Shown here: positions 17,761 to 35,714 of the stretch, piece by piece
Numbering within the stretch: position 1 is the first letter of the stretch
Layout: each line of letters opens with the position of its first letter
Origin: Sphaerisporangium rufum
GTDB lineage: Bacteria; Actinomycetota; Actinomycetes; Streptosporangiales; Streptosporangiaceae
DNA length: 64,000 nucleotides
Direction of reading: 5' to 3'
NCBI RefSeq assembly: GCF_016863395.1
Contig: NZ_BOOU01000012.1
Location: forward strand, 1-64,000
Notes under the pieces: generated by a model
Told to the model about the DNA's origin: nothing
Seen by the model: only the letters and a program-made list of their open reading frames with translations
Database searches by the model: none
Position numbers and translations under genes: made by a program

Positions 17761-18632
17761 CGGGTCGGGGCCGGTCGCGCCTGCCAGGCCAGGGTCCGCC
17801 AGGGGCTTGCCGGGTCGCCGGTCAGGACGCGGTGCGTGGCCAGCGCGGTGTCGTACCACATGCCGAACTCGTCGTTGTCGAACTGCAGGACACGGCCCAG
17901 GATGTAGCCGGCGGAGTACTCGTCCCACGACCGGTAGGTGGCGGCGGCGAGCGCGCCGGCCTGGAGCACCGCGGTCCGCGCCTCGGGCTCGCCGCAGTAA
18001 CCGGCGCGCAGGTTCCACAGCGCCAGCGGAGGGACGCGGCCGTAGTCGAAGGCGCGCACGGTGTGGACCAGGCCTTCCAGCGGGAGCACCCCGTCGGCGC
18101 GCAGCCGTGCCTCGTAGCGGGTGATCCGTTCGGCGATCGCGCCCAGTTCGGTGATGGCGATCTCGCTGAAGCCGCACTCCCGGCCCGTCTGGAGCAGGGC
18201 GTCCCGCCACTGCGCCAGGTTGGGGGGGAAGCCGGCCTGGGCGAGCCACCGCTGCCGGATGCCGAGCGCCACCTTCACCGCCGGGTCGCCGCCCGCCGCG
18301 TCGAGCAGGTTCGTGACGGTCTCGCCCCAGGAACGGGCGTCGGTGATGCCCCAGATGTCGCGTAGGTCGGCGATGGCGATGCTCGGGTGCTCGCGGTCCG
18401 GAACCAGCGCGTTCCACGGCTCGCCGTTGGCGTGCAAGAGGGGCGCACCGCACGCCATGGCCTGGGCGAACTCGCCGACGATCGGGGCACCGGGGAAGGT
18501 GACCAGCCGGTGCATCCGCAACTGTTTACGAACGACCCGGCCGGCGCGGACGCCTCGGACCACCCCCCACCCGGATAGACCGACGGCGAGGACCATCAGT
18601 ACCACGATCACGGCGAACATGAGATCGGACAT
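17757..18632 (-). CDS. DUF1266 domain-containing membrane protein
   Basis: 291 residues with one N-terminal membrane helix and a soluble DUF1266 region. The family motif is seen as IWGITDARSWGETVTNLLD, followed by FDYGRVPPLALWNLRAGYCGE and SWDEYSAGYILGRVLQFD. DUF1266 proteins (YbeR/YbeU-like) have no established role; some sit next to polymorphic toxin or secretion genes. Here it is the first gene of a two- or three-gene run with its paralogue and the DUF5954 gene. Confidence 0.75.
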   Translation of the reverse strand: MSDLMFAVIVVLMVLAVGLSGWGVVRGVRAGRVVRKQLRMHRLVTFPGAPIVGEFAQAMACGAPLLHANGEPWNALVPDREHPSIAIADLRDIWGITDARSWGETVTNLLDAAGGDPAVKVALGIRQRWLAQAGFPPNLAQWRDALLQTGRECGFSEIAITELGAIAERITRYEARLRADGVLPLEGLVHTVRAFDYGRVPPLALWNLRAGYCGEPEARTAVLQAGALAAATYRSWDEYSAGYILGRVLQFDNDEFGMWYDTALATHRVLTGDPASPWRTLAWQARPAPTR

Positions 18633-18796
18633 CGCGCATCTCCAGCATTGATCCCCGGCGGGAGCGATCGGGCCCCCTCCCTAAATGATCAAGCTTATCC
18701 GCAAATGTGATCTTGTCGGAATCCGCAGGCCACCGGGCCGGTGCGGGCACCTCCCGGCCGGGCGAGGCCGGCGGCGGACCGCCGCGGCTCCCGCGG

Positions 18797-19591
18797 TCAC
18801 CGCGGCGCGGGGCCGGCGACGGAGAACGTCTCGCCGTTCGCCGGGACGCCCACCTCGAACCAGGTGAACGGGACACCGGTCGCGCCGGCCGGGTCCGGCC
18901 GGTCCATCAGCTGGAAGTGGACGTGCGGCTCGCTGGAGTTGCCGGAGTCGCCGCACTCGGCCAGCACCTGCCCGGCGGTGACCCGGTCGCCCGCGCGCAC
19001 CTTGAGCGAGCCGCGGCGCAGGTGGGCGTAGAGGGCGAAGGTGCCGTCTCCGAGGTCGAGCACCAGATGGTTGCCGATGACCCGGTGTGCGCCCAGCAGC
19101 TCGCGGACGGCGCCCTCCACCACCAGGTAGAGCAGCGCGGGATAGGAGTTGCGGCTCAGGTGATCGCGCTGCCGGTCGGTCGCGCGGACCACCGTGGCGT
19201 CGGCGACGGCGTGCAGCGGCGCGCCGAACGCGGGGAAGTCGCGGTTGCGGCGCATGATCGGCCACCAGCCGAAGCGGGGGCGGGTCCCGCCGGCCGGCTC
19301 GGCGACGACGTCGATCGCGTACGTCTGGCCGTAGGCGTGCGTGCCGTGGCTGGGCGCCTTGTCGGCCGGGCTGTTGAGCGCCGACCATCGCCCGGTGACC
19401 GGCGGGCGGACCTCGACGGGCCGGGTCTGATCGGCGGTGGGCGCCCGGCCGGCGGCGAACTGCAGGACGAGCATCGCGCCGAGCGGGATCCACGCCCACA
19501 TCCAGGAGATGTCGTAGTAGTAACTCGCCACCACCAGGGCGAAGAACGCCGCCCAGCAGCACCGGTTCAGCGTCGTGACATTGCGGTGCAT
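18797..19591 (-). CDS. Membrane-anchored M23-type peptidase
   Basis: 264 residues. Two N-terminal membrane helices (about 10-45) are followed by a LytM/M23 domain: SHGTHAYGQTYAIDVV holds the first metal His and Asp, and SEPHVHFQLMD holds the HxH pair, with ALYAHLRRGSLKVRAGDRV and GQVLAECGDSGNSS between. It should be an extracytoplasmic endopeptidase acting on peptidoglycan cross-links. The ArsR-like gene lies 85 bases upstream on the same strand, suggesting a regulator-peptidase operon. Confidence 0.83.
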   Translation of the reverse strand: MHRNVTTLNRCCWAAFFALVVASYYYDISWMWAWIPLGAMLVLQFAAGRAPTADQTRPVEVRPPVTGRWSALNSPADKAPSHGTHAYGQTYAIDVVAEPAGGTRPRFGWWPIMRRNRDFPAFGAPLHAVADATVVRATDRQRDHLSRNSYPALLYLVVEGAVRELLGAHRVIGNHLVLDLGDGTFALYAHLRRGSLKVRAGDRVTAGQVLAECGDSGNSSEPHVHFQLMDRPDPAGATGVPFTWFEVGVPANGETFSVAGPAPR

Positions 19592-19676
19592 CGGAGACCT
19601 CCATCGTCGGTATCGGGCTGGTCTGGGAGTGCTCGGACGACTCCCCTCCTTCCGGTGGGCCGCTCCGGGGCGGAAC

Positions 19677-20186
19677 TCAGGGCCGGGAGGCGAGCAGCGC
19701 CACCAGCAGCGGGACCACCCGCCCTGGCGGGACCTCGTGCCGGCCGCGGCCGGTGGTGTGCAGCCAGCCGGCCGCGGCGAGTTGCCGCAGGTGGTGGTAC
19801 ACCTGCCCGGTGGTGCCCAGGCCGGGGAGTTCGGTCAGCTCGGCGGCGGTACGCCGGCCGCCGAGGATCTCGCGCAGCAGGCGCAGCCGGACCGGATGGC
19901 CGAGGGCCGCGAACGACTCCGCGGCGGCCGGCCAGTCGCCGGCCAGCAGCGCGTCGGTGCCGAGCGCCTGCTGCCACTCGTAGCGCTCGCCGGCCGGCAG
20001 GCGAACCGTGCCGGTGAACAGCACGCCGCCGTCGCCGGCGCCGTCGGCGGCCAGCTTCGCGGTGAGGCCGTCCAGCGCCCAGAAGTCGCCGTCCGCCCGG
20101 GCGCCGTCCGGGCGGACGGCGCGCCCGGCGCCCTCCAGTTCGGCGACCCGGCGCTCCAGCTCGGCGAGTCGCTCCTCCAATTCCAT
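19677..20186 (-). CDS. ArsR-like winged-helix regulator with N-terminal coiled coil
   Basis: 169 residues. An N-terminal coiled coil (MELEERLAELERRVAELEG) precedes a linker and an ArsR winged helix (LGHPVRLRLLREILGGRRTA, GTTGQVYHHLRQLAAAGWL, GRGRHEVPPGRVVPLL). The Gln-Val-Tyr-His-His recognition helix is typical of this actinobacterial type, which is often next to an M23 peptidase gene as here. The intergenic inverted repeat at 20194-20216 begins 8 bases before the start codon, which supports autoregulation. Confidence 0.85.
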   Translation of the reverse strand: MELEERLAELERRVAELEGAGRAVRPDGARADGDFWALDGLTAKLAADGAGDGGVLFTGTVRLPAGERYEWQQALGTDALLAGDWPAAAESFAALGHPVRLRLLREILGGRRTAAELTELPGLGTTGQVYHHLRQLAAAGWLHTTGRGRHEVPPGRVVPLLVALLASRP

Positions 20187-20193
20187 ATTTTCG

Positions 20194-20216
20194 ATATTAC
20201 GTAATCACGTAGATAT
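20194..20216. promoter_or_regulatory. AT-rich palindrome upstream of the ArsR-like gene
   Basis: TACGT (20198-20202) and ACGTA (20207-20211) form an inverted repeat about AATC, flanked by ATAT on both sides (20194-20197 and 20213-20216). An overlapping perfect TTACGTAA lies at 20197-20204. In this GC-rich background such an AT-rich palindrome just before the start codon is a good operator candidate for the adjacent ArsR-like protein. Confidence 0.55.
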
Positions 20217-20438
20217 GTCAATCGGGCAGGTGCCATGGCCACGAGACCGGGGTGGTCGATCGGGTCTGCCGCGCGCCCGGTATCGGCCCGCCGGTTCCTG
20301 ATCAAGGGCGGGACCGGGTCCGTTATCTCTCCCAGCGAACGGCGGAGCAGCTCAGCGGCCGGAAAATCAGGCGATACCGGCCGCGGCCTCGTATAACGTG
20401 ATCCGAGTGAATCTCCCCCGTCGCGGCGAGGTGGGACC

Positions 20439-22172
20439 GTGCTGAGCCGGCTGCTCCGCGCCCATCTGCGTCCCTACTCGGCCGCCCTGGCGCTGGTCGT
20501 GCTGTTCCAGCTGGTCGGCACCATCGCGTCCCTGTACCTGCCCAGCCTGAACGCCGACATCATCGACCGGGGCGTCGCCCGCGGCGACACCGGTTACATC
20601 CTCGGTACCGGCGGGTGGATGCTGGCGGTGTCGCTGCTGCAGATCGCCTGCGCGATCGCCGCCGTCTACTACGGCGCCAAGGTGGCGGCCGGCTTCGGCC
20701 GGGACGTGCGCGGCGCGGTGTTCCACCGGGTGATCGGGTTCTCCACCCGGGAGGTCACCGGCCTGGGCGCGCCGTCACTGATCACCCGCTGCACCAACGA
20801 CGTGCAGCAGGTGCAGATGCTGGTCGTGATGACCTGCACGATGCTGGTCGCCGCCCCGATCATGGGGGTCGGCGGCATCATCATGGCGCTGCGCGAGGAC
20901 GTCGGCCTGTCGTGGCTGATGCTGGTCTGCGTCCCGGCGCTGCTCATCTCGGTCGGCCTGATCGTCTGGCGGATGGTGCCGCAGTTCCGCCTCATGCAGG
21001 AGCGCATCGACCTGGTCAACCAGGTGCTGCGCGAGCAGCTCACCGGCATCCGGGTGGTCCGGGCCTTCGTCCGCGAGCGCGAGGAGACCCGGCGGTTCGC
21101 CGCGGCCAACGAGGCGCTGACCGACACCGCGCTGCGCGTCGGGCGGCTCACCGCGCTCATCTTCCCCACCGTGATGCTGATCTTCAACGCCTCCATGGTC
21201 GCGGTGCTGTGGTTCGGCGCCTCCCGGGTGGACGGCGGCGAGATGCAGGTCGGCGGGCTGATCGCCTTCCTCAGCTATCTGATGCAGATCCTCACCGCGA
21301 TGATGATGGCCACCTTCATCTCGATCATGATCCCGCGGGCCGCCGTGTGCGCCGAGCGCATCGTGGAGGTGCTGGACACCGACTCCTCGGTGCGCGCCGC
21401 CGGCCGCCCGGTCCGCGAGGTGCACCGCCGGGGCGAGGTGGAGATGCGCGAGGTGGAGTTCCGCTATCCCGGCGCGGCGGCGCCCGTGCTGTCCGGCATC
21501 ACCTTCCAGGCCCTGCCCGGGCGGACCACCGCGGTCATCGGCAGCACCGGCTCGGGCAAGACGACGTTGCTGTCGCTGATCCCGCGGCTGTTCGACGCGA
21601 CCGCAGGCACCGTGTCGGTGGACGGCGTGGACGTGCGCGAGCTGGACCCGCAGGTGCTATGGACCAGGATCGGCCTGGTGCCGCAGAAGCCCTACCTGTT
21701 CAGCGGCACCGTGGCCAGCAACCTGCGGTACGGCAATCCCGCCGCCACCGACGAGGAGCTGTGGGAGGCGCTGGAGGTGGCGCAGGCCCGCGACTTCGTC
21801 GAAGCGATGCCCGAAGGCCTGGCCGCGCCCATCTCCCAGGGCGGCACCAACGTCTCCGGCGGGCAGCGGCAGCGGCTGTCCATCGCCCGGGCCCTGGTGG
21901 CCCGGCCGGAGATCTACCTCTTCGACGACGCGTTCTCCGCGCTCGACCTGGCCACCGACGCCCGGCTGCGCGCCGCGCTGCGCCCCTACACCGCCGAGGC
22001 CGCCGTGGTCATCGTCGGGCAGCGGGTGTCCACCATCGCCGACGCCGACCAGATCATCGTGCTGGACGGCGGCCGCATCGCCGGCATCGGCACCCATCAC
22101 CAGCTGCTGGAGACCTGCCCCACCTACGTGGAGATCGTGGAGTCCCAGCTGACCGCGGAGAGTGCGGCATGA
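20439..22172 (+). CDS. ABC exporter half-transporter, subunit with degenerate catalytic site
   Basis: 577 residues: six membrane helices (about 1-320) followed by an ATPase domain. Walker A is [13 protein letters not shown] (near residue 367), the Q-loop VPQKPYLF, the signature [16 protein letters not shown] is canonical, but Walker B reads [11 protein letters not shown], with Asp instead of the catalytic Glu. That is the pattern of the non-hydrolysing site in heterodimeric exporters (TmrAB, BmrCD, Rv1272c-Rv1273c type). Its stop overlaps the next ATG, so the two halves are made together. Substrate unknown; lipid or drug export is likely. Confidence 0.9.
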
Positions 22173-24190
22173 GCGACCGTCCCACCGCGCCGGCGGGCAA
22201 GGCGCCCGCCGCGCCCGCCGCACCGGCCCGCCCGCCGGCCGGCGGCGGCCCGTTCGGGCGCGGCCCGTTCGGCGGCGCCGGGATGCCCGCCGAGAAGTCG
22301 ATGGACTTCTGGCCGTCCGCCCGCCGGCTGCTCGGCCGGCTGCGCCCGGAACGGCCCCGGCTGGTGGCGGTCATCCTGCTCGCGGTGTCCAGCGTGGCAC
22401 TGCAGGTCATCGGGCCCAAGATCCTCGGCCACGCCACCGACCTGATCTTCAGCGGCGTGGTGTCCCGCGGGCTGCCGTCCGGCATCACCGCCGAGCAGGC
22501 GGTCCAGGGCGCCCGCGCGTCCGGCAACGGCAACCTCGCCGACATGCTCGCCCGGATGGACCTGACGCCTGGCCGGGGCATCGACTTCGTCGCGCTCGGC
22601 ACCACGCTGACCTGGGTGCTCGTCATCTTCGTGGTGTCCTCGCTGTTCATGTGGCTGCAGGGCCACCTGCTCAACGACGTCACCCAGCGCACCGTCTACC
22701 GGCTGCGCTCGGACGTGGAGGACAAGCTGCACCGGCTGCCGCTGCGCTATTTCGACGGCCGGCCGCGCGGCGAGCTGCTCAGCCGGGTCACCAACGACAT
22801 CGACAACGTCGCCCAGACCATGCAGCAGACGCTCAGCCAGCTGCTGGTCTCGGTGCTCACCGTGGTCGGCGTGCTGGCGATGATGTTCGTGATCTCGCCG
22901 CTGCTCGCGCTGATCGCGCTGGTCACCGTGCCGGTGTCCATGGTGCTCACCGGCCTGGTGGCCAAGCGCTCGCAGAAGCTGTTCGTCGCGCAGTGGGCGC
23001 ACACCGGCACCCTGAACGGCCACATCGAGGAGGCGTTCACCGGGCACGAGCTGGTCAAGGTGTTCGGGCGCGGCCCGGAGGTCGAGGAGGTCTTCCGGCA
23101 GCGCAACGAGGAGCTGTACAAGTCGAGCTTCGGCGCCCAGTTCATCAGCGGGATCATCATGCCGCTGATGATGTTCGTCGGGAACCTCAACTACGTGGCG
23201 GTCGCCGTGGTCGGCGGCCTGCGGGTGGCCACCGGCTCGATGTCGCTGGGCGACGTGCAGGCGTTCATCCAGTACTCTCGCCAGTTCACCCAGCCGCTCA
23301 GCCAGGTCGCCTCGATGGCCAACCTGCTGCAGTCCGGGGTGGCCTCGGCCGAGCGGGTCTTCGAGCTGCTGGACGCCGCCGAGCAGGAGCCGGACCCGGC
23401 CGAGCCGGTGCCGGCCACCGCGCGGCGCGGGCGGGTGGAGTTCGAGCACGTCTCGTTCCGCTACGAGCCGGACCGGCCGCTCATCGAGGACCTGTCGCTG
23501 GTCGCCGAGCCCGGCCACACCATCGCCATCGTTGGCCCCACCGGCGCCGGGAAGACCACCCTGGTCAACCTGATCATGCGGTTCTACGAGCTGGACGCCG
23601 GCCGGATCACCCTGGACGGGGTGGACATCACCGCGATGAGCCGCGACGAGCTGCGCGCGCAGACCGGCATGGTGCTCCAGGACACCTGGCTGTTCGGCGG
23701 CACCATCCGCGACAACATCGCCTACGGCGACCCGCGGGCCACCGAGGAGCAGATCATGGCCGCGGCCCGGGCGACCTATGTCGACCGGTTCGTGCGCACG
23801 CTGCCGGACGGCTACGACACGGTGATCGACGACGAGGGCGGCAACGTCAGCGCCGGCGAGAAGCAGCTGCTCACCATCGCTCGCGCGTTCCTCGCCGACC
23901 CCTCGCTGCTCATCCTGGACGAGGCGACCAGCTCGGTGGACACCCGCACCGAGGTGCTGGTGCAGCACGCCATGGCGGCGCTGCGCTCCGACCGCACCAG
24001 CTTCGTCATCGCGCACCGGCTGTCCACCATCCGCGACGCCGACCTCATCCTGGTGATGGAGGAGGGCAGCATCGTCGAGCACGGCACGCACGAGGAGCTG
24101 CTCGCCGCCCGCGGCGCCTACCACCGGCTGTACTCGGCGCAGTTCGCCGGCGCCCTGGTGCCGGCGGACGGCGAAGCCGCCCAGGGCTGA
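22169..24190 (+). CDS. ABC exporter half-transporter, catalytically intact subunit
   Basis: 673 residues. A Gly/Pro/Phe-rich cytosolic N-terminus of about 40 residues leads to a membrane domain with an insertion between helices 1 and 2 (about residues 90-135), then the ATPase domain. Walker A is [13 protein letters not shown] (near 455), Q-loop VLQDTWLF, Walker [13 protein letters not shown] with the catalytic Glu, and H-loop IAHRLSTI. The signature is [16 protein letters not shown], not SGGQ. This complements the partner: one working ATP site and one degenerate site per heterodimer. The ATGA overlap fixes the start. Confidence 0.92.
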
Positions 24191-24204
24191 CCCCGTCCGA
24201 TCAT

Positions 24205-24250
24205 CCGGCCCCGGCCACCCGGCCGCGCGACACGGCGTGGCCGGGGCCGG
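24205..24250. terminator. Bidirectional terminator hairpin
   Basis: A perfect 14-bp stem, 24205-24218 against 24237-24250, with an 18-base loop, sits between the convergent ABC operon and the minus-strand gene that ends at 24255. Confidence 0.65.
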
Positions 24251-24254
24251 CGGC

Positions 24255-24836
24255 TCAGCCGGGGGTCTGCGCCGTCTCCAGCCGGCGGATGATCGGCGTC
24301 ACCAGCTCGTTCAGCTCGCGGACCAGCACGGTGACGGCCAGCCGGGCGGACTCGGCCAGCCCGGCGGACGGGCCCTCCGGGGCCGGCGGCAGCGCGTCCA
24401 GCGGCACCGGCGCGTCGATCAGCAGGGTGGTGCGCAGGAACGGCGCGCGGCTCACGTCCTGGTCGGTGGGCTCCAGGTACTGGCCGAAGGTCTGCGGCCA
24501 CTCGCGCCAGCCGCGGTCGCGCCACCACTCGCGCGAGGCGGTCAGCTCGGCCGGCAGCGGGGACACCATCAGGATGTGCGCGGTCAGCGTGCCGTCCCAC
24601 GGGTTGCGGTCGCAGGCGGCCGACAGGATGCGCCGGTGCCGGCGGACGTACGGCGGGGACGGCGTGACGGCCAGCCGCCAGGCGGCGCAGGCGAAGGTGA
24701 CCGGCGCGATGTCGCCGTAGGACCCCTCGAACGCGAGGCTGTGCTTGTGGACGTATTCGGCGTAGTGGCTGAGGCCGTCCGCGGCGAGCTGCCGGTCGTG
24801 GCCGTGGTCGATCCAGAAGGCATCGTGCTCGCCCAT
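24255..24836 (-). CDS. Hypothetical protein, 193 residues
   Basis: Soluble, acidic start MGEHDAFWIDHGHDRQLA, Trp-rich middle (REWWRDRGWREWPQTFGQYL). I do not recognise a family. It has coding character (consistent third-position GC, no low complexity) and a clear ATG. It ends beside the ABC exporter terminator and is divergent from the RiPP precursor gene at 25070, from which it is separated by about 230 bases. Confidence 0.6.
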   Translation of the reverse strand: MGEHDAFWIDHGHDRQLAADGLSHYAEYVHKHSLAFEGSYGDIAPVTFACAAWRLAVTPSPPYVRRHRRILSAACDRNPWDGTLTAHILMVSPLPAELTASREWWRDRGWREWPQTFGQYLEPTDQDVSRAPFLRTTLLIDAPVPLDALPPAPEGPSAGLAESARLAVTVLVRELNELVTPIIRRLETAQTPG

Positions 24837-25069
24837 GCGTACCTCTCCGTGCGGTGGTCCCGCCCGCCATCCAACGCGATCCGGCCGGGGCGGCGCGCCC
24901 GGTTTCTCCCACAGCCGACAGCCGGCCGGCCGCGGCCGCCGATGCTCACCGAAAGTGGCGTCCCGGTGATAGCTCGCAGTCGGAAAAGGGCGCACAATCG
25001 GGGCGAGTTCCAGCAGTTCGGGGGATCCACCAGCCGTCCGCTTCCGATCACGAGAGACGAAGGCAGCCG

Positions 25070-25360
25070 ATGGACGAGGGCCACCGCCCGGAAGAGCAGG
25101 GCACCGAGATCGAGCTCGACTTACCCGACCTCGATCTGACCGACATCGACGCGCTGGACGGCACCGCGCTGGGCGCGATCCTCCAGGAGATCTACGGCTC
25201 CGGCCGCGACATCACCGCCGGCGGCTCGCCGGTGGGGCAGATCTTCAGCTCGCACAGCTCGCACAGCCGGTTCAGCTCGTTCAGCTCGTTCTCCTCCTTC
25301 AGTTCCTTCTCGTCGTTCTCCTCCTTCAGCTCGCACAGCTCCACCTCGTGGGCGACGTAG
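25070..25360 (+). CDS. RiPP precursor peptide with aromatic-Ser-Ser repeats
   Basis: 96 residues. The first half is an acidic leader (ELDLPDLDLTDIDALDGTAL then GAILQEIYG) of the kind seen in FxsA-type precursors. From residue 59 the peptide is a run of triads: FSS, HSS, HSR, seven FSS in a row (68-88), HSS, then TSWAT. Each triad fits the aromatic-x-x motif on which radical SAM/SPASM enzymes build three-residue cyclophanes. Serine codons vary between triads (AGC TCG, TCC TCC, AGT TCC, TCG TCG), so the repeat is kept at protein level. Its stop lies inside the maturase reading frame (13-base overlap). ATG follows GAAGG. Confidence 0.82.
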   Translation: MDEGHRPEEQGTEIELDLPDLDLTDIDALDGTALGAILQEIYGSGRDITAGGSPVGQIFSSHSSHSRFSSFSSFSSFSSFSSFSSFSSHSSTSWAT

Positions 25361-26544
25361 CCGGGCGGCCGGCGGCGGTCACCGGCGCCGAGCCGTTCCG
25401 GTCGTTCATCTGCAAGGTGGCCTCGCGCTGCAACCTCGACTGCGACTACTGCTACGTCTACCGGCACGCCGACCAGTCCTGGCGCGCCCAGCCGCAACGC
25501 ATGTCGCTGGCGACGGCCGCCCAGCTCGGCCGGCGGATCAACGAGCACGCCGTCGCGCACGGCCTGGCCCAGGTCGACTTCGTGCTGCACGGCGGCGAGC
25601 CGCTGCTGCTCGGGGTGGACTACCTGCGGGCGCTGTGCCAGGCGGTCACCCGGCACGCCCCGGACGTGCGGATCAGGTGGAACGGGCAGACCAACGGCAC
25701 CGCGCTCACCGAGGAGGTGCTGGACTTCTGCCAGGAGTGGGACGTCACCTTCGGGCTCAGCGTCGACGGCCCGCGCGCGGTGAACGACCGGCACCGGCGC
25801 GACCACGCCGGCCGGTCGTCGTTCGACGAGGTGGCCCGGGCGCTGGAGTTGTTCGGCGGCGAGCGCGGCCGGCCGTACTGGGGCGGCGTGCTGGCGGTGA
25901 TCGACCTGGCCGCCGACCCGCTGGAGTGCTACTCCTACCTGCGCTCGTTCGGCCCGCCGTCCATCGACTTCCTGCTGCCGCTCGGGCACCACGACCTGCG
26001 GCCGCCCGGCAAGGAGCACAGCCTGACCGGCACCCCGTACGCCGACTGGCTGCTGGAGATCTTCCAGGTCTGGTACCGCGAGCGGCCGCAGCCGCTGCGC
26101 ATCCGCCGGTTCCGCGACATCATCGCGCTCTACCTCGGCGCCACCCGCAGCTCCGAGGAGTGGGGACTGCAGGCGGTCGACTTCATCGTGGTGGAGACCG
26201 ACGGGGAGATCCAGGCGGTCGACACGCTCAAGGTGACCTATCCGGGCGCCTGCCGGCTCGGCCTGGACATCTTCCGGCACGACTTCGACGCGGCGCTCGC
26301 CTCCCCGCTGGTCCGCGCCCGCCAGGAGAGCTGGCGGGCGCTCGGCGAGACCTGCCGCCGCTGCGAGGTGGTCCGCGTCTGCGGTGGCGGCTACTTCCCC
26401 CAGCGGTACTCGCGGCGCGGCGGCTTCCAGAACACCTCGGTCTACTGCGCCGACCTGATGAAGCTCATCCGCACGGTCACCGGCACGGTGCTGGCCGACC
26501 TGCGCGAGGTGTCCCGGCCCCCGACCGAAAGGCCCGCGCGGTGA
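25348..26544 (+). CDS. Radical SAM/SPASM peptide maturase (FxsB-like)
   Basis: 398 residues. The radical SAM cluster motif is C28-x3-C32-x2-C35 (SRCNLDCDYCYVYRH), followed by LHGGEPLLLG and QTNGTAL. The SPASM part has CRLGLDIF, CRRCEVVRVCGGGYFPQRYS and NTSVYCADLMKLI, which match the FxsB type closely. Such enzymes bind extra Fe-S clusters and form C-C links between an aromatic ring and the side chain two residues later. GTG start at 25348 overlaps the precursor gene, and its stop overlaps the next start (GTGA). The presumed substrate is the adjacent Ser-rich peptide. Confidence 0.87.
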   Translation: MGDVAGRPAAVTGAEPFRSFICKVASRCNLDCDYCYVYRHADQSWRAQPQRMSLATAAQLGRRINEHAVAHGLAQVDFVLHGGEPLLLGVDYLRALCQAVTRHAPDVRIRWNGQTNGTALTEEVLDFCQEWDVTFGLSVDGPRAVNDRHRRDHAGRSSFDEVARALELFGGERGRPYWGGVLAVIDLAADPLECYSYLRSFGPPSIDFLLPLGHHDLRPPGKEHSLTGTPYADWLLEIFQVWYRERPQPLRIRRFRDIIALYLGATRSSEEWGLQAVDFIVVETDGEIQAVDTLKVTYPGACRLGLDIFRHDFDAALASPLVRARQESWRALGETCRRCEVVRVCGGGYFPQRYSRRGGFQNTSVYCADLMKLIRTVTGTVLADLREVSRPPTERPAR

Positions 26545-29513
26545 CCGTCCGACTCGACACCACCACGATCGCCTCCTTCGCCGCGCCGGCCGGCCGCACC
26601 GGCCCGAACCGCGCGGTGTTCGCCGCCCGCTACTACGACACCCTGGTCGGGCTGCGCCGGCTGCGCGACCTGCTCGCCGACGCCCGGCCGGACTGCCTGG
26701 CCGAGTCGGGGTACGCCGAGCACCTGGCCGTGCTGAGCACCGCCCCCGGCCCGGTGCAGCGGCGGGTGCTCGGCCATCCGAGCGCGGGCTTCTGGGTGGA
26801 CGTGGCGTGGAGCCTGGTCCGCCGCCGCGCGCACGAGCGCTTCCCCGGCATGCACCTGGTCCCGCACCTGCGGGAGTTCGCCCGGTTCGCCGCGAGCGCG
26901 GCGGTGCTGGCCGGCGGCTCATCCCCGCCGGCGGCCGTCCGCGCCGACCGCGACGGGCGGGTCGCGCTGCCCGGCGCCGGCCTGGCCCTGCGGCCGCGCG
27001 GCGCCACCCCGTACGCCCGCACCACGCTCGCCGTCGAGGCCGGCGAGCCGGCCGGCGGGCCGCACCTGGACCGGGTGCCCCACCTGGCGGCCGGCCCCGA
27101 GCTGAACTGGCTGGACGCCGACCTGCGGCTGGGCGGCCGCACCCGCTACGACTTCGCCGTGCTCGCAGCGCCGGAGGCCGAGCGGTGGCGGCGGGAACTG
27201 GACGAGTGCTTCGCGACGGTGCGGCGGGTGCACGAGCCGCTGCACGCCGAGCTGGCCGGCGGGCTGCGGGCGATCGTGCCGATCCGCGCGCCGGACGCCT
27301 CGACGCACGTCAGCGGCAGCTTCCGCGAGGCGCCCGGCCTGGTCGCACTCGCGCTCGGCACCGAGGTGGCCACGGTCGAGGCCCTGGTCCACGAGTACGG
27401 GCACCAGAAGTTGTACGCGCTGATGATGCTGGACCCGCTCATCGCCGGCGACACCGGCGAGGCCGTGCACTACTCGCCCTGGCGGGACGACCCGCGCCCG
27501 CTCGGCGGGCTGCTCCAGGCGGTCTACACCTTCGTGTCGGTGCTGCACTTCTACCGGGCCGCGCTCGGCACGCCGGGCACCGGCGGCCTGCCCGCCGCCG
27601 AGGTGATCACCCGCGCCTACCAGCTGACCGGCCAGGTGCGCGACGGGCTGGCCGGGCTGCGCGAGCGCGACGCGTTCTCGCCGCTCGGCCGGGCGCTGGC
27701 CGCGGCGCTGGAGCTGCGGCTGGCCGAGGCGACCGGGGACCTGCCCGCGCCGCCGGCGGCCGACCGCCGCGGAATCGACGCGGCGCGCCGGGAGCACCGG
27801 GCCCGCTGGGCCGCGCGCAACGGCCCGGCGAATCCGGCACCCCCGGGCGCCCGCGCCGAGCCCGCCGGCCGGCCGGCGACCGCATCGTCGGGCGCGGCGG
27901 CCCTTCCACCGGCAGACCCGGCGGACCGAGATCCGGCGGGCCGGGATCCGGCGGACCGGGTGGGCCGGGCGGGTTCGGGGGGGCCGGTGACCCGGGTGGC
28001 GGGCTCGTCCGGTCCGGTGGCAGAGGCAGGACCGGACGGCGGGGCGCGAACCGAGCTGGAGGCGCGCACCCTGCGGGCGCTCGGCCTGCCGGAACGGTGG
28101 ACGGCCGGCGCCATCCTGCGCCGCTGGTACCCGGGCGACTCCCTGCTGGAACGGGTGCGCCACCTGAGCGAGCGGGGCGAGCTCGTCCTGCCGCCCGCGC
28201 CGGCCGGCGCCTCGCTGATCACCGACCTGGCCGCGGCGCACGCCGCCTACGTCCGCGACGACCATCCGGAGGCGGCGGCGCGTTACGCGGCGTGCGTCGC
28301 GCACGACCCGGGCAGCCCGTACTTCTGGCAGTGCTACGCCTTCGCGCTGCGGCACCTGGGCCGGCACGCCGAGGCGCTGTACATCCTGGCGCACACCGCC
28401 TACCTGCTGACCACCGGCCGGGTGCCCGACCCCGCCACCGACGTGCGCCGGACCCCGGCCGCCCGGAACTGGGGCCTGGCGCTGCCGCCCGCCGGGCCGG
28501 AGCCGTCCGGCCCGGCGGCCGGCCCCACCGGCGACGCGGTCGCCGACGAGCTGCGGCACAGCCGGTACCGGGACTTCGTCGCGGCGACCGGCGGCGGGCA
28601 ACTGCCGGCGCTCATCGCGGTCGCCCAAGGGCTGAAGCCGGCGATGGACGTGTGGATCCCGCCGGCCGGGTGGCCGGCGTTCCTGCGCGCCGCCGACCGG
28701 CTGGGCCTGGTTCACCACGTGGACGCGTGCTTCGACCGGCACTCACCGCAGCTCGCCCAGGTGCCGCCCGACCAGCTGACCACCACCCGGGCCGGGTTCA
28801 GCCCGGAGCTGCGGCCCGGCACCGAGGCGCACGTGTTCCTGGCCCGGGACCGCGCGGCGCTCGACCGGGTGGTGGGCGCCGGATGGTACCCGCTGGTCAT
28901 CGGCGGCAAGGTGGTCAACAAGCACCGCGCCGACCACGACAAGTTCGGCGACGCGCTCGGCTACCCGCCCTGCTGCCAGGAGTTCTTCCGGCACCGCAAC
29001 AACTGGCACGACGACAACACCTACTACGCGGCGCTGCTGGCCACCAAGGGCGAGCCGTCGGCCTGGTGCAACCCGTTCCTGCGCCACACGATGTACGGCC
29101 TGGTTCCGTACATGCCCTGTTCGTACGCGTGCCCGGCCACCACCGCGTTCGCCGGGCGGCTGCGCGACGCCGTCGCCGGGGAGCTGCCGGAGTACCTGGC
29201 GGCGATGGAACGGGCGCTGCGCAAGCCGTTGCTGTGCGTGTCGGAGCTGCGCATGTACTGGTTCCACGACGAGTCGGTGACGCGGGACGACGCCGGGGAG
29301 GGCGTGGTGACGATCGCCTACCGGGGCGTGGAGTCGCTCTACCCGATCGAGGAGGACGACCCGCTGTGCCGGCTGCTGGCGTCCGGGGACCGGCTGGAGC
29401 TGGACGGCGAGGTCATCCGGGTGTACGCGGGGGACGCCTACGTCGGCGGCCATCAGGCCCGCGGCGACCGGCACGGCCCCGAGTGCCCCTTCGTGCTGAC
29501 CTTCGCTCCCTGA
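26541..29513 (+). CDS. HExxH peptide beta-hydroxylase-like protein fused to helical repeat and Cys-rich DUF483-like domain
   Basis: 990 residues, three parts. Residues 1 to about 420 match the HExxH peptide-modification domain found next to FxsB-type maturases: VEALVHEYGHQKLYAL with H284, E285 and H288, then HYSPWRDDPRPLGGLLQAVY from 310. Related proteins are thought to be 2-oxoglutarate-dependent peptide hydroxylases. A low-complexity linker (about 425-500) leads to a TPR-like helical part (about 560-630) and a C-terminal domain with GYPPCCQEFF (C811, C812) and MPCSYACPAT (C860, C864), resembling DUF483. GTG overlaps the maturase stop, so all three genes form one unit. The role of the C-terminal domain is unknown. 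Confidence 0.78.
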   Translation: MTVRLDTTTIASFAAPAGRTGPNRAVFAARYYDTLVGLRRLRDLLADARPDCLAESGYAEHLAVLSTAPGPVQRRVLGHPSAGFWVDVAWSLVRRRAHERFPGMHLVPHLREFARFAASAAVLAGGSSPPAAVRADRDGRVALPGAGLALRPRGATPYARTTLAVEAGEPAGGPHLDRVPHLAAGPELNWLDADLRLGGRTRYDFAVLAAPEAERWRRELDECFATVRRVHEPLHAELAGGLRAIVPIRAPDASTHVSGSFREAPGLVALALGTEVATVEALVHEYGHQKLYALMMLDPLIAGDTGEAVHYSPWRDDPRPLGGLLQAVYTFVSVLHFYRAALGTPGTGGLPAAEVITRAYQLTGQVRDGLAGLRERDAFSPLGRALAAALELRLAEATGDLPAPPAADRRGIDAARREHRARWAARNGPANPAPPGARAEPAGRPATASSGAAALPPADPADRDPAGRDPADRVGRAGSGGPVTRVAGSSGPVAEAGPDGGARTELEARTLRALGLPERWTAGAILRRWYPGDSLLERVRHLSERGELVLPPAPAGASLITDLAAAHAAYVRDDHPEAAARYAACVAHDPGSPYFWQCYAFALRHLGRHAEALYILAHTAYLLTTGRVPDPATDVRRTPAARNWGLALPPAGPEPSGPAAGPTGDAVADELRHSRYRDFVAATGGGQLPALIAVAQGLKPAMDVWIPPAGWPAFLRAADRLGLVHHVDACFDRHSPQLAQVPPDQLTTTRAGFSPELRPGTEAHVFLARDRAALDRVVGAGWYPLVIGGKVVNKHRADHDKFGDALGYPPCCQEFFRHRNNWHDDNTYYAALLATKGEPSAWCNPFLRHTMYGLVPYMPCSYACPATTAFAGRLRDAVAGELPEYLAAMERALRKPLLCVSELRMYWFHDESVTRDDAGEGVVTIAYRGVESLYPIEEDDPLCRLLASGDRLELDGEVIRVYAGDAYVGGHQARGDRHGPECPFVLTFAP

Positions 29514-29551
29514 CCGGCGACTCCGACCGGCGACCCTGGGAGGAGCCGCCT

Positions 29552-29573
29552 GCCGGCCCTACCTGCGGCCGGC
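29552..29573. terminator. Hairpin downstream of the RiPP operon
   Basis: GCCGGCC (29552-29558) pairs with GGCCGGC (29567-29573) around an 8-base loop, between convergent genes. Short but perfect; a modest terminator candidate. Confidence 0.35.
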
Positions 29574-29671
29574 CCGCCGGGATCGCGGCACCGGACGCCT
29601 GGCGGCCACCGGTCCCGGCGAGCCGGCGATCCGGGGGGCCCGCTCCTGCCGGGCCGCCGGTCGTGCCGGGC

Positions 29672-30619
29672 TCAGCGGGCCGGGGCGGGGATGCGGCCGA
29701 TGCCGAGGGTGTTGGCGGTCGGCAGCACGCCGGACTCCAGCGCGGCGACCAGCAGCGGCATGACCAGCTCGGCCAGCCGCTCGGCCCGCTCGGTGCCGAG
29801 CGCGCGCCACGGCCCGTAGGCCAGGTCGTCGGTGCGGCGCTCGACCTCCTCGCGCAGCGCCCGGCCGCGCTCGGTGGCCGCGCCGGCCGCGTCCAGCAGG
29901 CCGCGGGCGGCGAGCCGGTCCCGGGCGGCGGCCCACTCCTCGGCGGTCCAGCCGCGGCTCGCGAAGGTCTCCTGCGGCGCGGCGCCCACGGCGGCGAACG
30001 ACACCAGCGCCTCGCACGGGTCCAGCTCCGCGGTGAGCAGCGCGGCGATGTGCCCGTCGCCGCGGTGCTCGCGCAGCACCCCGATGGCCTGCCACAGCGC
30101 CAGGTGCGGCTCGTCCGGCCAGGGCAGCGCCGCGTTGGCGGCGGCCAGCGGGCGGCCCGCGGTACCGGCCGCCTCGGCCGCCGCCCGGGCCAGCCGGGCC
30201 GCCTCGGCGAGGCCGGGGTCGGTGATCCGGTCGCCGAGCATGGTGCGGTACATCCGGTCCACGGCGCGCAGCCGGCCCGCCAGCACCCGCCGGGCCGGCG
30301 CGACGGCCCAGGCGGCCGGGATGTGCTCGGCCACCATGCGCGGGCTGAAGCTGTAGAAGGCCGCGCTCACCAGGGCGGCGCTCGCCTCGCCCAGCGGGGC
30401 CGCGCGCCAGGCGAAGTAGCTCGGCCAGCGGCTGTGCACCGGGAACCCCAGATCCGCCGCCTCCTTGAGCATCTCCGGGCCGTACCAGAACGGCGCGTGC
30501 ACCGGCTCCAGCTGGTGCCACATCCGCCGCGCGAACCCGGGGTCCTCACCCATCGTCCCCACCCTCTCCATACCGGTCCGGTGCTCGCCGGACACCGCGT
30601 CGTGCTGATGGTCCGACAT
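29672..30619 (-). CDS. SCO6745-family protein (SalK-like)
   Basis: About 315 residues, helical, soluble. Its conserved start ARRMWHQLEPVHAPFWYGPE and the section FYSFSPRMVAEHIPAAW are the marks of the SCO6745 family, which includes a salinomycin-cluster protein of unknown function. The C-terminal half resembles a winged helix with GWTAEEWAAARDRLAARGLLD. The start is unsure: ATG 30619 is only 5 bases from an inverted repeat, and the ATG at 30553 has a better ribosome-binding site (AGAGGGTGGGG). It is convergent with the RiPP operon and probably unrelated to it. Confidence 0.78.
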   Translation of the reverse strand: MSDHQHDAVSGEHRTGMERVGTMGEDPGFARRMWHQLEPVHAPFWYGPEMLKEAADLGFPVHSRWPSYFAWRAAPLGEASAALVSAAFYSFSPRMVAEHIPAAWAVAPARRVLAGRLRAVDRMYRTMLGDRITDPGLAEAARLARAAAEAAGTAGRPLAAANAALPWPDEPHLALWQAIGVLREHRGDGHIAALLTAELDPCEALVSFAAVGAAPQETFASRGWTAEEWAAARDRLAARGLLDAAGAATERGRALREEVERRTDDLAYGPWRALGTERAERLAELVMPLLVAALESGVLPTANTLGIGRIPAPAR

Positions 30620-30623
30620 ATTA

Positions 30624-30638
30624 GATAGTAGAACTATC
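30624..30638. promoter_or_regulatory. Inverted repeat at the SCO6745-like gene start
   Basis: GATAGT (30624-30629) and ACTATC (30633-30638) form a perfect inverted repeat about AGA, in an AT-rich island directly before the 30619 ATG. It could be an operator or include the -10 element of this gene. Confidence 0.45.
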
Positions 30639-30834
30639 GAATGTCCAGTCGAGACGGGATGCGGTGCGGGTCTGTGGTGGCGGGCCCGGGTACGGGACCC
30701 GGTGCGGGCGGGCCGCCTTGGGCGATGCGCGGGGATGCGAGGGAACCGGAGGGATTCGGGGGAGGTGGAGGCCCGAAGGGGCCGGCGCGGCCGGCGGGGT
30801 CACGCCACCCGGCCGGCCGCGGCGGACGGCGGGG

Positions 30835-31158
30835 TCAGGGCGACCTGATCTCCGCCGGGGGCCGGCCCTGGGCGGGCCGGGGCTGGCGGATGGTGGTGGA
30901 CGGCCGGTCGCCCCGCTTGCGCGCGTAATAGGTGGGATAGCAGTCGTAGTAGCACCAGTACGGGTCGCAGTACCGCAGGAAACAGATGTACGGGCGGGTC
31001 GCGGCGGATGCCTCGGCCGCCGGGCAGACCACCGCCGAGCCGGTGGCCGGCGCGGTCCGGGCCGCCGCGGACGCGGGCGCCGCCGGCAGGCCGAACCCGG
31101 CGCCGGCGATCACCATTCCGGCCAGGGCCGTTCCGGCGGTATGGAGGAACCTGTGCAT
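30835..31158 (-). CDS. Small secreted Cys/Tyr-rich peptide
   Basis: 107 residues. A signal peptide (MHRFLHTAGTALAGMVIAGAGF...ASA) should be cut near residue 31. The mature part carries a dense aromatic and cysteine stretch, YICFLRYCDPYWCYYDCYPT, then a basic Pro-rich tail. Together with one Cys further upstream it has an odd number of cysteines, so disulphides plus a free thiol or metal binding are possible. I do not recognise a family. It is monocistronic; a 16-bp palindrome lies just upstream. Confidence 0.6.
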   Translation of the reverse strand: MHRFLHTAGTALAGMVIAGAGFGLPAAPASAAARTAPATGSAVVCPAAEASAATRPYICFLRYCDPYWCYYDCYPTYYARKRGDRPSTTIRQPRPAQGRPPAEIRSP

Positions 31159-31181
31159 GATCTTCCCTTCTCGCGGATCGA

Positions 31182-31197
31182 CTTGATCATGATCAAG
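31182..31197. promoter_or_regulatory. Perfect 16-bp palindrome CTTGATCATGATCAAG
   Basis: The palindrome lies 23 bases upstream of the start codon of the Cys/Tyr-rich secreted peptide gene, in its likely promoter region. Operator is the first guess; binding protein unknown. Confidence 0.5.
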
Positions 31198-31692
31198 CTA
31201 GCCGGACGATCACCTCAGGTCACGGACCCGTCGCGGTGCGGAGCCGATCTCTGTCGCCGATCTCGGTCGCCGGTGGCGCAGGGCGGTCCAGAGAGTCGAT
31301 GCCCGATCTCCCGCCTGCGCGGCCAGGACCCGATCCGGCGGGCCGGCGCGTCCTGAGGGGCTCGCGTGCCGCAAGGCCACGGCGCCGGTCGCGGTCGACG
31401 CGGCCCCGGCGTGCGTCGGCGGGGCCGCCTAGGAGGTCGAGGAGCAGGGGGGCGGGGGTCAGGGGCGCGTCAGGGGGTGCCGGTTAGCTTGGTGATCATG
31501 TGGGAGCCGGATGCCCTGGCGGCGGTGGGCCCGGCGGCCGGACGGCCCGCGCCGGCCGCCGGCGCGGGCCGCCGCCGCTGGAGTGGTGGTCCGCCGGAAC
31601 GGGCCGCGGGGTGGCGTCGACCGGCGGATCGGCTAGAGTTGAGTTGCTCGCTCTCTTGTACCATTCGTGTTTGTGAAGGCAGGTTCCGCGCC
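31198..31692. other. Intergenic region upstream of furA, no gene seen
   Basis: Nearly 500 bases. A frame runs in phase into furA from further upstream, but its residues are Arg/Gly/Ala-rich and unlike the family. The section around 31632-31680 is less GC-rich and probably holds the furA-katG promoter and the Fur operator. Confidence 0.5.
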
Positions 31693-32139
31693 ATGACCAC
31701 ACCCCGGACACCGACCGCCGCCGAGGAGTTGCGCGCGGCCGGGCTGCGGGTGACGGCCGCCCGCGTCGCCCTGCTGGAGACCGTCCGGGGCGGTGACCAC
31801 CTGGAGGCCGAGGCGGTCGCCGCCGGGGTGCGGGAGCGGGTCGGCCACATCTCTCTCCAGGCCGTGTACGAGGCCCTGCACGCCCTCACCGCGGCCGGGC
31901 TGGTCCGCCGGATCGAGCCGGCCGGCAGCCCCGCCCGGTTCGAGGGACGCGTGGGGGACAACCATCACCACATCGTGTGCCGGTCATGCGGCACCGTCGC
32001 CGATGTCGACTGCGAGGTCGGCGAGGCGCCCTGCCTGACGGCGTCCGACGACCACGGCTTCGTGATCGACGAGGCCGAGGTCATCTACTGGGGGCTGTGC
32101 CCCGGGTGCTCCACCGCCCGCAGTTCCCGAGCACTGTGA
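31693..32139 (+). CDS. FurA-type ferric uptake/peroxide regulator
   Basis: 148 residues. A winged helix (LRAAGLRVTAARVALLETV, ISLQAVYEALHALTAAGLV) is followed by the Fur dimer domain with the metal motif HHHIVCRSCG and a C-terminal CPGC, giving two CxxC pairs for structural zinc. It lies 24 bases before katG, the classic furA-katG arrangement of mycobacteria and Streptomyces, where the regulator represses its own operon and releases it under peroxide stress. The ATG at 31693 is chosen over an upstream in-frame extension. Confidence 0.92.
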   Translation: MTTPRTPTAAEELRAAGLRVTAARVALLETVRGGDHLEAEAVAAGVRERVGHISLQAVYEALHALTAAGLVRRIEPAGSPARFEGRVGDNHHHIVCRSCGTVADVDCEVGEAPCLTASDDHGFVIDEAEVIYWGLCPGCSTARSSRAL

Positions 32140-34401
<2,262 letters not shown>

Positions 34402-34408
34402 GCCCGCC

Positions 34409-34480
34409 GGACGCCTCCCGGCCGGACCCGGTCACCGGCGCACCGCCCGGTGACCGGGGCCGCCGGCCCGGGAGGCGTCC
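34409..34480. terminator. Very strong bidirectional terminator
   Basis: A 13-bp outer stem (34409-34421 with 34468-34480) encloses a 12-bp inner stem (34427-34438 with 34447-34458). Only short unpaired parts separate them. It lies between the convergent katG and NmrA-like genes and begins 8 bases after the katG stop. Confidence 0.8.
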
Positions 34481-34574
34481 GACCGGGTCATGACGTCCGG
34501 CCCGGCCGCCGCGCGGCCGGGCCGGACGCCGTTCAGCGGGCGGGCCTCCGGGACCGGGCCGGCGGGGGCCGGGA

Positions 34575-35423
34575 TCAGCGGAAGTCGTCGGCGTGGTCGC
34601 GGGCCCACCGGGCGTAGGGGGTCGCCGGCCGGCCGATCAGCCGCTCGACGGTCGGCAGCACCGGCTCGGGCGCGGCCACCATCGCCGCCTGCCCCGCGAT
34701 GATCGTCGCGGCCATCTCGACCGGCATGCCGCCGGCCACCATCTGCTCGCGCGCCTGGCCGGGGTCCAGCTCCACCCAGCGCACCGGCCGGCCGATCGCC
34801 TCGCCGATCGCCGCCGCCTGCTCGGCCTGGGTGAGCGTCTCCGGCCCGGTCAGCTCGTACACCGCGCCGTCGTGTCCCGGCGTGGTCAGCACGTGCGCGG
34901 CCACCGCGGCGATGTCCCGCTCGTGGATCAGGGACCGGCCCGCGTCGCCGTACACCCAGTGCACATCCCCGGTCTGGCGGATCTGCGGTGCCCACATCAG
35001 CGTGTTGGCGGCGAACCCGCCGGGCCGCAGGAAGGTGTGCGCCGCCCCGGAGCCGGCGATGAGCCGCTCCAGCAGCGCGTGCGAGCCGAGAATGGACCCG
35101 GGGACCGGCTCGGTGTCCGGGGTGACCCCGCGCGTGGACAGGTAGACGATCCGCCGGGCCCGCGCCGCGAGCGCGGCGATCGTGGCGGGCGCGGCGTGGT
35201 CGGCCGCCAGCGTGGGCCAGACCAGGAAGACGGTGTCCACCCCGTCCAGCGCCGCGTCCAGCGACCCGGGATCGGCCAGGTCGCCGCGGGCCACGCCGGC
35301 CGCCGCGGGCAGGTCCGCCCGCGCCGGGTCGCGGGTCAGCGCGCGCACCTTGGCGCCCCGCTCCAGCAGCATCTGCACCACGTGCCGCCCGACGTTCCCG
35401 GTGGCCCCGGTTACCAGGATCAT
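34575..35423 (-). CDS. NmrA/SDR-family NAD(P)-binding protein
   Basis: 282 residues. The nucleotide-binding loop is ILVTGATGNVGRHVVQMLL, then VRALTRDPARADLPA, RIVYLSTRGV and FLRPGGFAANTLMWAP, as in NmrA-like/quinone-oxidoreductase-type atypical SDRs. YxxxK is not seen. The ATG at 35423 is preceded by AGGAGTGTCC; a longer frame to 35486 lacks such support. It is convergent with katG; a link to oxidative stress is possible but not shown. Confidence 0.8.
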   Translation of the reverse strand: MILVTGATGNVGRHVVQMLLERGAKVRALTRDPARADLPAAAGVARGDLADPGSLDAALDGVDTVFLVWPTLAADHAAPATIAALAARARRIVYLSTRGVTPDTEPVPGSILGSHALLERLIAGSGAAHTFLRPGGFAANTLMWAPQIRQTGDVHWVYGDAGRSLIHERDIAAVAAHVLTTPGHDGAVYELTGPETLTQAEQAAAIGEAIGRPVRWVELDPGQAREQMVAGGMPVEMAATIIAGQAAMVAAPEPVLPTVERLIGRPATPYARWARDHADDFR

Positions 35424-35714
35424 GGACACTCCTCGTTCGCTCGCCTCGCTGCGGCGGTCGCCGCCGGCACCAGCGTGGAACATCAACCGAGGTTCAGGTC
35501 AACCCGGCGGTCCGGCCGGTCCCGAGCCGACGCCAGGGCCGGGAGGGGCGGGCGACCGGGCCGGGACGCGGTGGTCGCCAGGGTGCGGGATACTACAGAG
35601 TCGGTCACGAAACGCCATCCGGGCGTCGGCCGGACAGCCTCCGGCCCGCCGGCCGGAGGTCGGAGTCGAAGGAGCGGGCCGGCGCGGCCGCCCGCCGGGA
35701 GAGGGGACCGGCCG

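Follow-up and report, generated by a model that had tools for sequence, protein, structure and literature searches.

Radical S-adenosylmethionine (SAM) enzymes are known that join an aromatic ring to a beta-carbon, linking Phe C4 to Ser (MscB), His C2 to Ala (HaaB) and His C2 to Arg (YhhB) (PMC11002830). The cross-links of triceptides can lock peptides in a beta-strand-like form, and the activities of triceptides are described as not yet known (PMC12257519). Among the described systems, the closest to the locus presented here are the triceptides of the FxsA/FxsB type (TIGR04268/TIGR04269). We describe a three-gene cassette of Sphaerisporangium rufum, located in the first 64,000 nucleotides of contig NZ_BOOU01000012.1 (assembly GCF_016863395.1; this whole stretch is called the window), in which a precursor peptide with a run of 11 aromatic triads is followed by an FxsB-family radical SAM enzyme and a large hydroxylase fusion. 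Read from its sequence, the cassette would probably yield a triceptide-type ribosomally synthesized and post-translationally modified peptide (RiPP) that carries a long run of three-residue cyclophanes and is hydroxylated by the fusion.

The cassette shares with the FxsA/FxsB triceptides an enzyme that scores over the family cut-off, a resemblance in the leader and a Phe-x-Ser triad. It differs in having 5-19 consecutive triads rather than a short tail, in lacking a C-terminal FxSxx, in adding His triads with Ser, Arg, Gln or Ala, and in carrying the hydroxylase domain in a separate fusion with tetratricopeptide repeat (TPR)-like and Cys-rich parts. A repeat-core peptide with one Tyr-Asn-Arg and two His-Asn-Arg triads, at three the longest triad run in the literature surveyed (PMC9062424), belongs, we infer, to one system with the YhhB chemistry (PMC11002830). 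That system is similar in its multiple core triads, its His-x-Arg triads and a nearby alpha-ketoglutarate (aKG)-type oxidase, but in the available accounts it has 3 triads where the present loci have 5-19 with Phe-Ser dominant, and the window enzyme scores 373 bits with the YhhB model (NF041707) against a cut-off of 445. The ChlB/ChlH pair (9gm3 and 8s5f; also 22nu for the HExxH part) has both enzyme families and the same HExxH and SPWRxDxRP stretches, whereas the cassette has two genes for them, a hydroxylase fused to TPR-like and Cys-rich domains, and a repeat core. In TvgA/TvgB (TVGG repeats, poly-cyclopropylglycine) one radical SAM enzyme modifies a repeat core repeatedly and an aKG-type enzyme is in the cluster, but the residue and the bond are different (PMC9062424). 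Finally, HxsA/HxsB/HxsC is an older annotated kind with His-Xaa-Ser repeats adjoining radical SAM genes, and the HxsA-type and HxsB models, the ones sought here, score far under their cut-offs on the present cassette.

Repeat cores beside radical SAM enzymes thus have precedents in TvgA, in the Tyr-Asn-Arg/His-Asn-Arg peptides (PMC9062424) and in the HxsA models. Triceptides and FxsB are already known; it is the length of the core, the mixture of triads and the architecture of the maturases that look new. No account of such a triad run was found in the available text of the open-licence PubMed Central literature, which is not a claim of its absence from print.

The repeat core and its conservation in seven loci

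The precursor of the window consists of MDEGHRPEEQGTEIELDLPDLDLTDIDALDGTALGAILQEIYGSGRDITAGGSPVGQI, a core that reads FSS, HSS, HSR, then FSS seven times and a last HSS, and the tail TSWAT, with the stop codon read directly from the sequence at 25358-25360 (Table 1). Ten of the core triads are Phe/His-Ser-Ser and one is His-Ser-Arg, and the probability that all 11 core aromatics fall in one register by chance, given the composition of the core, is 1.6e-8. A preliminary description of this locus had counted 11 triads and a final Trp-Ala-Thr triad. The 11 are confirmed, but Thr-Ser intervenes after the last of them and so Trp-Ala-Thr is not a twelfth triad in register.

A search of genome contigs with the enzyme gave 61 loci, of which four had a best-segment identity of 73-78%: Streptomyces ipomoeae (L031), S. 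laculatispora (L032), Nonomuraea typhae (L033) and Nocardia bovistercoris (L034). The remaining loci were at 49% or below, save L091 (76%, over a stretch of 25 residues only). Searches of genomes added L099 (G542, of the window's family; enzyme 73% identical) and L108 (G760; 76%). A triad-repeat precursor with 5-19 triads lies directly upstream of the FxsB gene in 7/7 loci of this clade, the window included. A frame that is not conserved beside homologous maturases would, according to the preliminary description, have spoken against its reading, and the repeat is present in 6 of 6 other close orthologs. The genes, the conservation of the cassette, the enzyme families and the grammar of the triads are all shown at the level of sequence.

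The seven loci hold 76 triads in sum (window 11, L031 18, L032 5, L108 5, L033 9, L034 9, L099 19), a count that leaves out the end Trp triads of all loci and a Tyr-Ser-His that precedes the run in L032 and L108. Position 1 is Phe in 50 and His in 26; position 2 is Ser in 68, Asp in 5, Asn in 2 and Gly in 1; position 3 is Ser in 62, Arg in 6, Ala in 5 and Gln in 3, and every one of these position 3 residues has a C-beta hydrogen. By type there are 40 FSS, 14 HSS, 6 HSR, 5 FDS, 3 HSQ, 3 HSA, 2 FNS, 2 FSA and 1 FGS. Arg or Gln is found at position 3 only after His (9/26, vs 0/50 after Phe), and Asp, Asn or Gly at position 2 only after Phe (8/50, vs 0/26 after His; p 0.045), in Fisher tests that count related triads as if they were independent. 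The run ends in HSS in 7/7 loci, and His triads occur within triads 1-3 in 6/7, those of L034 being at 5-6.

The Ser codons are strongly divided by position, with AGY in 64/68 at position 2 and TCN in 53/62 at position 3. This pattern looks as if the run had expanded from a single TTC-AGY-TCN unit and was then kept as protein, which we consider the more likely course. A single-step intermediate between TTC and CAC would encode Leu or Tyr, and neither residue is found at position 1 of the counted triads, although the run is preceded by Tyr-Ser-His in L032 and L108. Variable Ser codons had previously been taken to show selection. That argument is weak, the within-run ratio of nonsynonymous to synonymous differences (pN/pS), calculated from triad pairs that are not independent, being 0.75 in the window and 0.33-0.94 over the seven loci, and it is further complicated because position 2 is mostly AGY and position 3 mostly TCN. 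The pattern itself is conserved across species, and the case for a maintained repeat rests on this conservation rather than on codons. Low-complexity slippage as a full explanation was rejected because all six other close orthologs found keep the triad frame with differing codons.

The leader had been described as FxsA-like and acidic, and the resemblance is upheld by a match of TIGR04268 (FxSxx-COOH) to residues 17-43 of the window precursor, though its 19.7 bits lie below the cut-off of 28. Of the relatives, L033 scores 14.2 bits and L031, L032, L034 and L099 have no match; the model is also under cut-off for canonical-looking FxsB neighbours at L014 (16.9 bits), L017 (23.9) and L049 (24.7). 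The C-terminus differs from the usual Phe-x-Ser-x-x, as had been noted, with TSWAT at the end of the window precursor and WSGR, WSGRA, WSGRG, WSR or STWSGRV at the ends of its relatives, none of them a C-terminal Phe-x-Ser-x-x tail.

Table 1 Features of the cassette in the window (positions of the forward strand; start codons are predicted, each being the mechanical first choice)
Feature	Coordinates	Strand	Basis
Precursor peptide gene, 96 aa, ATG start	25070..25360	+	Open reading frame read directly; counterparts in six other loci
Acidic leader, conserved (D/E)LDL..(I/M/V)(D/E).L...(A/V)LG..L.E	25070..25243	+	Alignment A1 of five precursors; TIGR04268 match
Repeat core, 11 triads FSS/HSS/HSR	25244..25342	+	Direct reading, triad counts, locus scan
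C-terminal tail TSWAT and stop	25343..25360	+	Sequence; six relatives compared
FxsB-family radical SAM/SPASM maturase, 398 aa, GTG start	25348..26544	+	TIGR04269, 432.6 bits (cut-off 370)
990-aa fusion of HExxH hydroxylase domain, TPR-like stretch and Cys-rich domain, GTG start	26541..29513	+	Profile matches, relatives
aKG-HExxH-type peptide beta-hydroxylase domain, residues 221-390; HEYGH 27390-27404	27201..27710	+	TIGR04267, 112.9 bits (cut-off 40)
TPR-like stretch, residues 584-613	28290..28379	+	PF13431, 19.6 bits, below cut-off of 24.4
C-terminal Cys-rich domain, invariant DH, CC and three more Cys	28560..29510	+	Alignment A6 of seven

The FxsB-family radical SAM enzyme

The second gene had been placed directly after the precursor as FxsB-like. 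Its family assignment stands, with a score over the cut-off for TIGR04269 (Table 1), but the two genes are not merely adjacent: the GTG of the enzyme lies inside the last codons of the precursor. Other models all fell below their cut-offs, including XyeB (134.6 bits, cut-off 450), GrrM (100.7, 310) and AmcB (101.9, 425) in addition to YhhB. The closest solved sequence is the radical SAM domain of ChlB (9gm3; 256.6 bits). CxxxCxxC and five C-terminal Cys are invariant in the five enzymes aligned. The locus has the sequence feature of a triceptide system, an aromatic-X-X motif adjoining a radical SAM enzyme of a cyclophane-forming family; the aryl to C-beta bond between residues i and i+2 that also marks triceptides is predicted.

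The window's own genome holds two more FxsB-family genes, at L001 (contig C25) and L002 (C89), which score 557.6 and 482.1 bits; the first is in an open frame of 851 aa, and an HExxH match follows shortly after it on that strand. At another locus (L015, G005:C22:33607-34749) an FxsB-like gene is interrupted by one in-frame TGA and is either a pseudogene or an assembly error. Small open reading frames upstream of FxsB in L042, L046, L047, L048, L036, L039 and L044 have Ala-Tyr-Val/Ala-His-Asn-Ser, -Asn-Thr, -Thr-Ser or -Ser-Ser near the end, and are possibly single-triad His precursors.

The HExxH, TPR-like and Cys-rich fusion

The third gene was absent from the preliminary description, although its stop codon forms the end of the region then described (29513). 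The two enzyme genes overlap by 4 bases, from the GTG of the fusion to the stop of the radical SAM gene, so that with the GTG at 25348 lying within the precursor's end and the GTG at 26541 before 26544 the three genes overlap end to end. The fusion is 51-63% identical to those of L031, L033, L034 and L099 over the full alignment. The TIGR04267 cut-off is exceeded not only in the window but also in L099 (121.8 bits), L031 (122.8) and L034 (110.3), and H-E-x-G-H is invariant in five aligned sequences; an HExxH and an SPWRxDxRP stretch are common to the window domain and ChlH (8s5f). A designed consensus TPR protein was among the profile matches, and the TPR-like stretch is conserved in the five aligned fusions.

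For the Cys-rich domain the sole Pfam match was PF04467 (DUF483) at 13.6 bits, under the cut-off of 25. Foldseek with a model of this domain gave no match at E 0.001 or better, and VIA-align gave one, 2guk, a protein of unknown function; the model has a predicted local distance difference test (pLDDT) score below 50 at residues 146-189, which lie within the Cys-rich part. On these results no mechanism is claimed for the domain. A likeness of the fusion to phosphoheptose isomerase over residues 221-322 (phmmer E 3.5e-4 to 3.9e-3) was absent from the profile search and was therefore taken as chance.

In L103 (G625) fragments of the C-terminal domain at about 6976-7074, with 33 residues at 64% identity and a second stretch at E 1.4e-4, are apparently the remnant of a decayed cassette. 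L100 (6626-7717) has a stand-alone homolog of this domain, 33% identical, with another radical SAM gene about 4 kb away. A DUF483-like Cys motif is found in two same-genus genomes, at L102 (5371-8593) and L101 (about 6318-6650). In L102 the protein that contains it has 494 aa and a weak match to methyltransferases; its gene adjoins one of 175 aa and a radical SAM gene, for which AmcB is the best model (71.4 bits, cut-off 425). These genes are possibly another peptide-modifying system.

Distribution of the cassette

When 81 fetched loci were scanned strictly for at least 4 consecutive triads, the six relatives were positive and the other 75 negative. These 81 include L016, a duplicate of the place of L002, and the short match L091, and for L001, L002 and L005-L020 only about 1.5 kb of flank was covered, so a precursor lying farther away would have escaped the scan. 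A looser pattern (aromatic, any residue, then S/D/N/R/Q/K/A, at least 4 times) added L053, L062, L069, L082 and the minus strand of the window near 30401; these five matches, of four triads each without FSS or HSS, were taken as chance.

HExxH, TPR-like and C-terminal domains stand beside FxsB in L031, L033, L034, L099 and L108, hence in 6/7 loci with the window, and the contig of L032 stops inside the HExxH gene. The C-terminal domain was found at E 1e-4 in no other locus of the 81. An HExxH match at 27-42% identity is close by in many of them, in line with the established pairing of the FxsB and HExxH families. The seven repeat-core enzymes form one side of a branch with an SH-aLRT support of 100 in an 80-row tree, which was made by a quick method after L016 and L091 had been removed and has flagged long branches elsewhere. 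The two members of genus g240 are not paired in this tree (support 87, under the program's star). A genome of the window's genus (G001) has an FxsB stretch identical to one of S. album, in keeping with the placement of the window in Sphaerisporangium. The cassette occurs in Streptomycetaceae, Streptosporangiaceae and Nocardiaceae. The sequences suggest its horizontal spread, because the hosts span three families, the g240 members are unpaired and the cassette is rare in every sample.

A profile of the C-terminal domain (E <= 0.001) matched 1 of 396 genomes of the phylum, the window's own, and 6 of 297 of the family, where the window's own and G542 were strong, G496 reached 1.6e-49 and three were partial. 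Close FxsB matches (E <= 1e-140) were present in 2/54 genomes of the genus of G542, 3/345 of the order, 1/345 of the class, and 1/392 and 1/148 in further samples; all these samples overlap, and in most genomes only some first-look candidates were scored (e.g. 4 or 5), so that these numbers may be underestimates. By coordinates and precursor, G706 is the record of L033 and G1150 that of L034. In the window's genus, the ten remaining genomes had no FxsB match above 47% identity, and among 72,556 plasmid records 275 had an FxsB-like match, none at 60% or more.

Proposed product and alternative readings

In the pathway that we favor, the conserved leader would guide the peptide to the FxsB-family enzyme, which would work along the core and join the aromatic ring of the position 1 Phe or His to the beta-carbon of position 3 (Ser, Arg, Ala or Gln). 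The outcome would be a series of strained three-residue cyclophanes, at most 11 of them in the window and at most 18-19 in relatives. Residues of the cyclised core would then be hydroxylated by the aKG-HExxH domain, the long substrate probably being held by the TPR-like and Cys-rich portions, and the product would be a stiff, extended multi-ring peptide. The cross-linking, the number of rings, the hydroxylated residues, the release and the function are inferred. Of the six position-1/position-3 pairs found here, 3 match those of MscB, HaaB and YhhB, and His-Ser, His-Gln and Phe-Ala are unmatched in the available text (PMC11002830). ChlH, of the same hydroxylase family, has as its substrate a peptide in which a cyclophane is already in place, and PflC/PosC, also of this family, hydroxylate several consecutive Gln (PMC12636437), which gives repeated action by the hydroxylase a precedent. 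A bolder form of the proposal is plausible but tentative: that a single enzyme makes 11-19 consecutive mixed cyclophanes (Phe-Ser, Phe-Ala, His-Ser, His-Arg, His-Ala and His-Gln) and a TPR-armed HExxH enzyme hydroxylates them, giving an encoded rigid rod, its length determined by the number of triads. The preliminary interpretation is partly supported: sequence comparison upholds an FxsB-containing RiPP operon, an FxsA-like leader and a repeat core conserved between species, and the cyclisation of every triad, or of any, is a prediction.

Several points weigh against a cyclophane series. In 2/7 loci, the window and L099 (0.94), pN/pS is not far under 1. The scanned precursors are under the FxSxx-COOH cut-off or unmatched and lack the C-terminal FxSxx tail, and the end Trp triad (WSG, WSR or WAT) is off-grammar, with Gly as its third residue in most members. 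Not every triad must react, and the alternation of Phe and His and the variable number could mark recognition rather than rings. No protease or exporter that could account for release of the product is common to the window and L031-L034.

An unlikely alternative is that few triads are cross-linked, such as the His triads close to the two ends of the run, and that the rest is a spacer or docking array for the TPR fusion. The recurrence of His triads within triads 1-3 (6/7) and in the HSS that ends the run (7/7) fits this, as do the spacer-like variation in triad number from 5 to 19 and the short FxSxx-type tails of the FxsB neighbours in L014, L017 and L049. However, Phe or His at position 1 in 76/76 triads and the lack of Gly at position 3 are stricter than a spacer needs, a strictness that is partly by construction because the run was delimited by these residues.

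It is less probable again that the triads are monomers, many small ring peptides being released when the modified chain is cleaved by the HExxH protein or by a protease of the host, as proposed for TvgA, from each precursor of which several small products were thought likely by the authors (PMC9062424). The HExxH enzymes PflC/PosC also cut the backbone oxidatively (PMC12636437) and triad number varies freely (5-19), but the C-terminal ARMD motif recognised in that cut is absent here. There is also no extra residue between triads as a cutting site, and the variant triads (HSR, HSQ, FDS) would yield a mixture.

Oxidation of Ser to a formylglycine-like aldehyde or to aminomalonate, which would make the run an oxidised-serine array, seems very improbable. 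Anaerobic sulfatase maturases make formylglycine, and FxsB is related to them (TIGR03942, 170.5 bits, cut-off 349.45); at least 1 Ser is present in all 76 triads. This oxidation predicts the identical loss of 2 Da, so that a loss of 2 Da per triad alone would not tell a cyclophane from an aldehyde. It is the aromatic residue that is invariant, however, and not Ser, which is replaced by Asp, Asn or Gly at position 2 and by Arg, Ala or Gln at position 3, and the enzyme is over the cut-off for FxsB and under that for the sulfatase maturase. That the cassette is a His-Xaa-Ser (Hxs) system by another name is scarcely credible, for although triad repeats adjoin radical SAM genes in either kind and HxsA-type models weakly match 4/6 scanned precursors (L032 18.7 and 10.6 bits, L033 15.1, L031 12.5, L034 11.5), the HxsA cut-offs are 48-121.65, the window and L099 have no match, and HxsB scores 61.3 bits against a cut-off of 370.

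Gene surroundings

No gene beyond the cassette is common to the window (18501-36000, open reading frames of at least 80 aa) and L031-L034, L099 and L108 being outside this comparison. Two ABC transporter half-genes lie upstream on the same strand at 20439-24190, the first identified by profile scan and the second by eye, and are separated from the precursor by a minus-strand open reading frame of 246 aa without a Pfam match. The pair was kept out of the cassette because it is unmatched in L031-L034.

In Nonomuraea typhae an AAA/TPR protein (L033, 9676-12318) is directly 3' of the cassette, and in Nocardia bovistercoris (L034) a WD40 protein is upstream of it. Many FxSxx peptides have been assigned to conflict systems (PMC7159879). 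This role is not carried over to the cassette because AAA/TPR or WD40 genes are near it only in L033 and L034, among ten neighbours scanned.

Implications

If the proposed product is correct, the triceptides would come to include a natural chain of strained rings that resembles a polymer. The precursor of L099 alone would offer the enzyme six kinds of position-1/position-3 pair, and natural substrates with 5, 9, 11, 18 and 19 triads could show how processive and how tolerant a cyclophane-forming enzyme is. The cassette would then also be a way to encode stiff peptide rods genetically.

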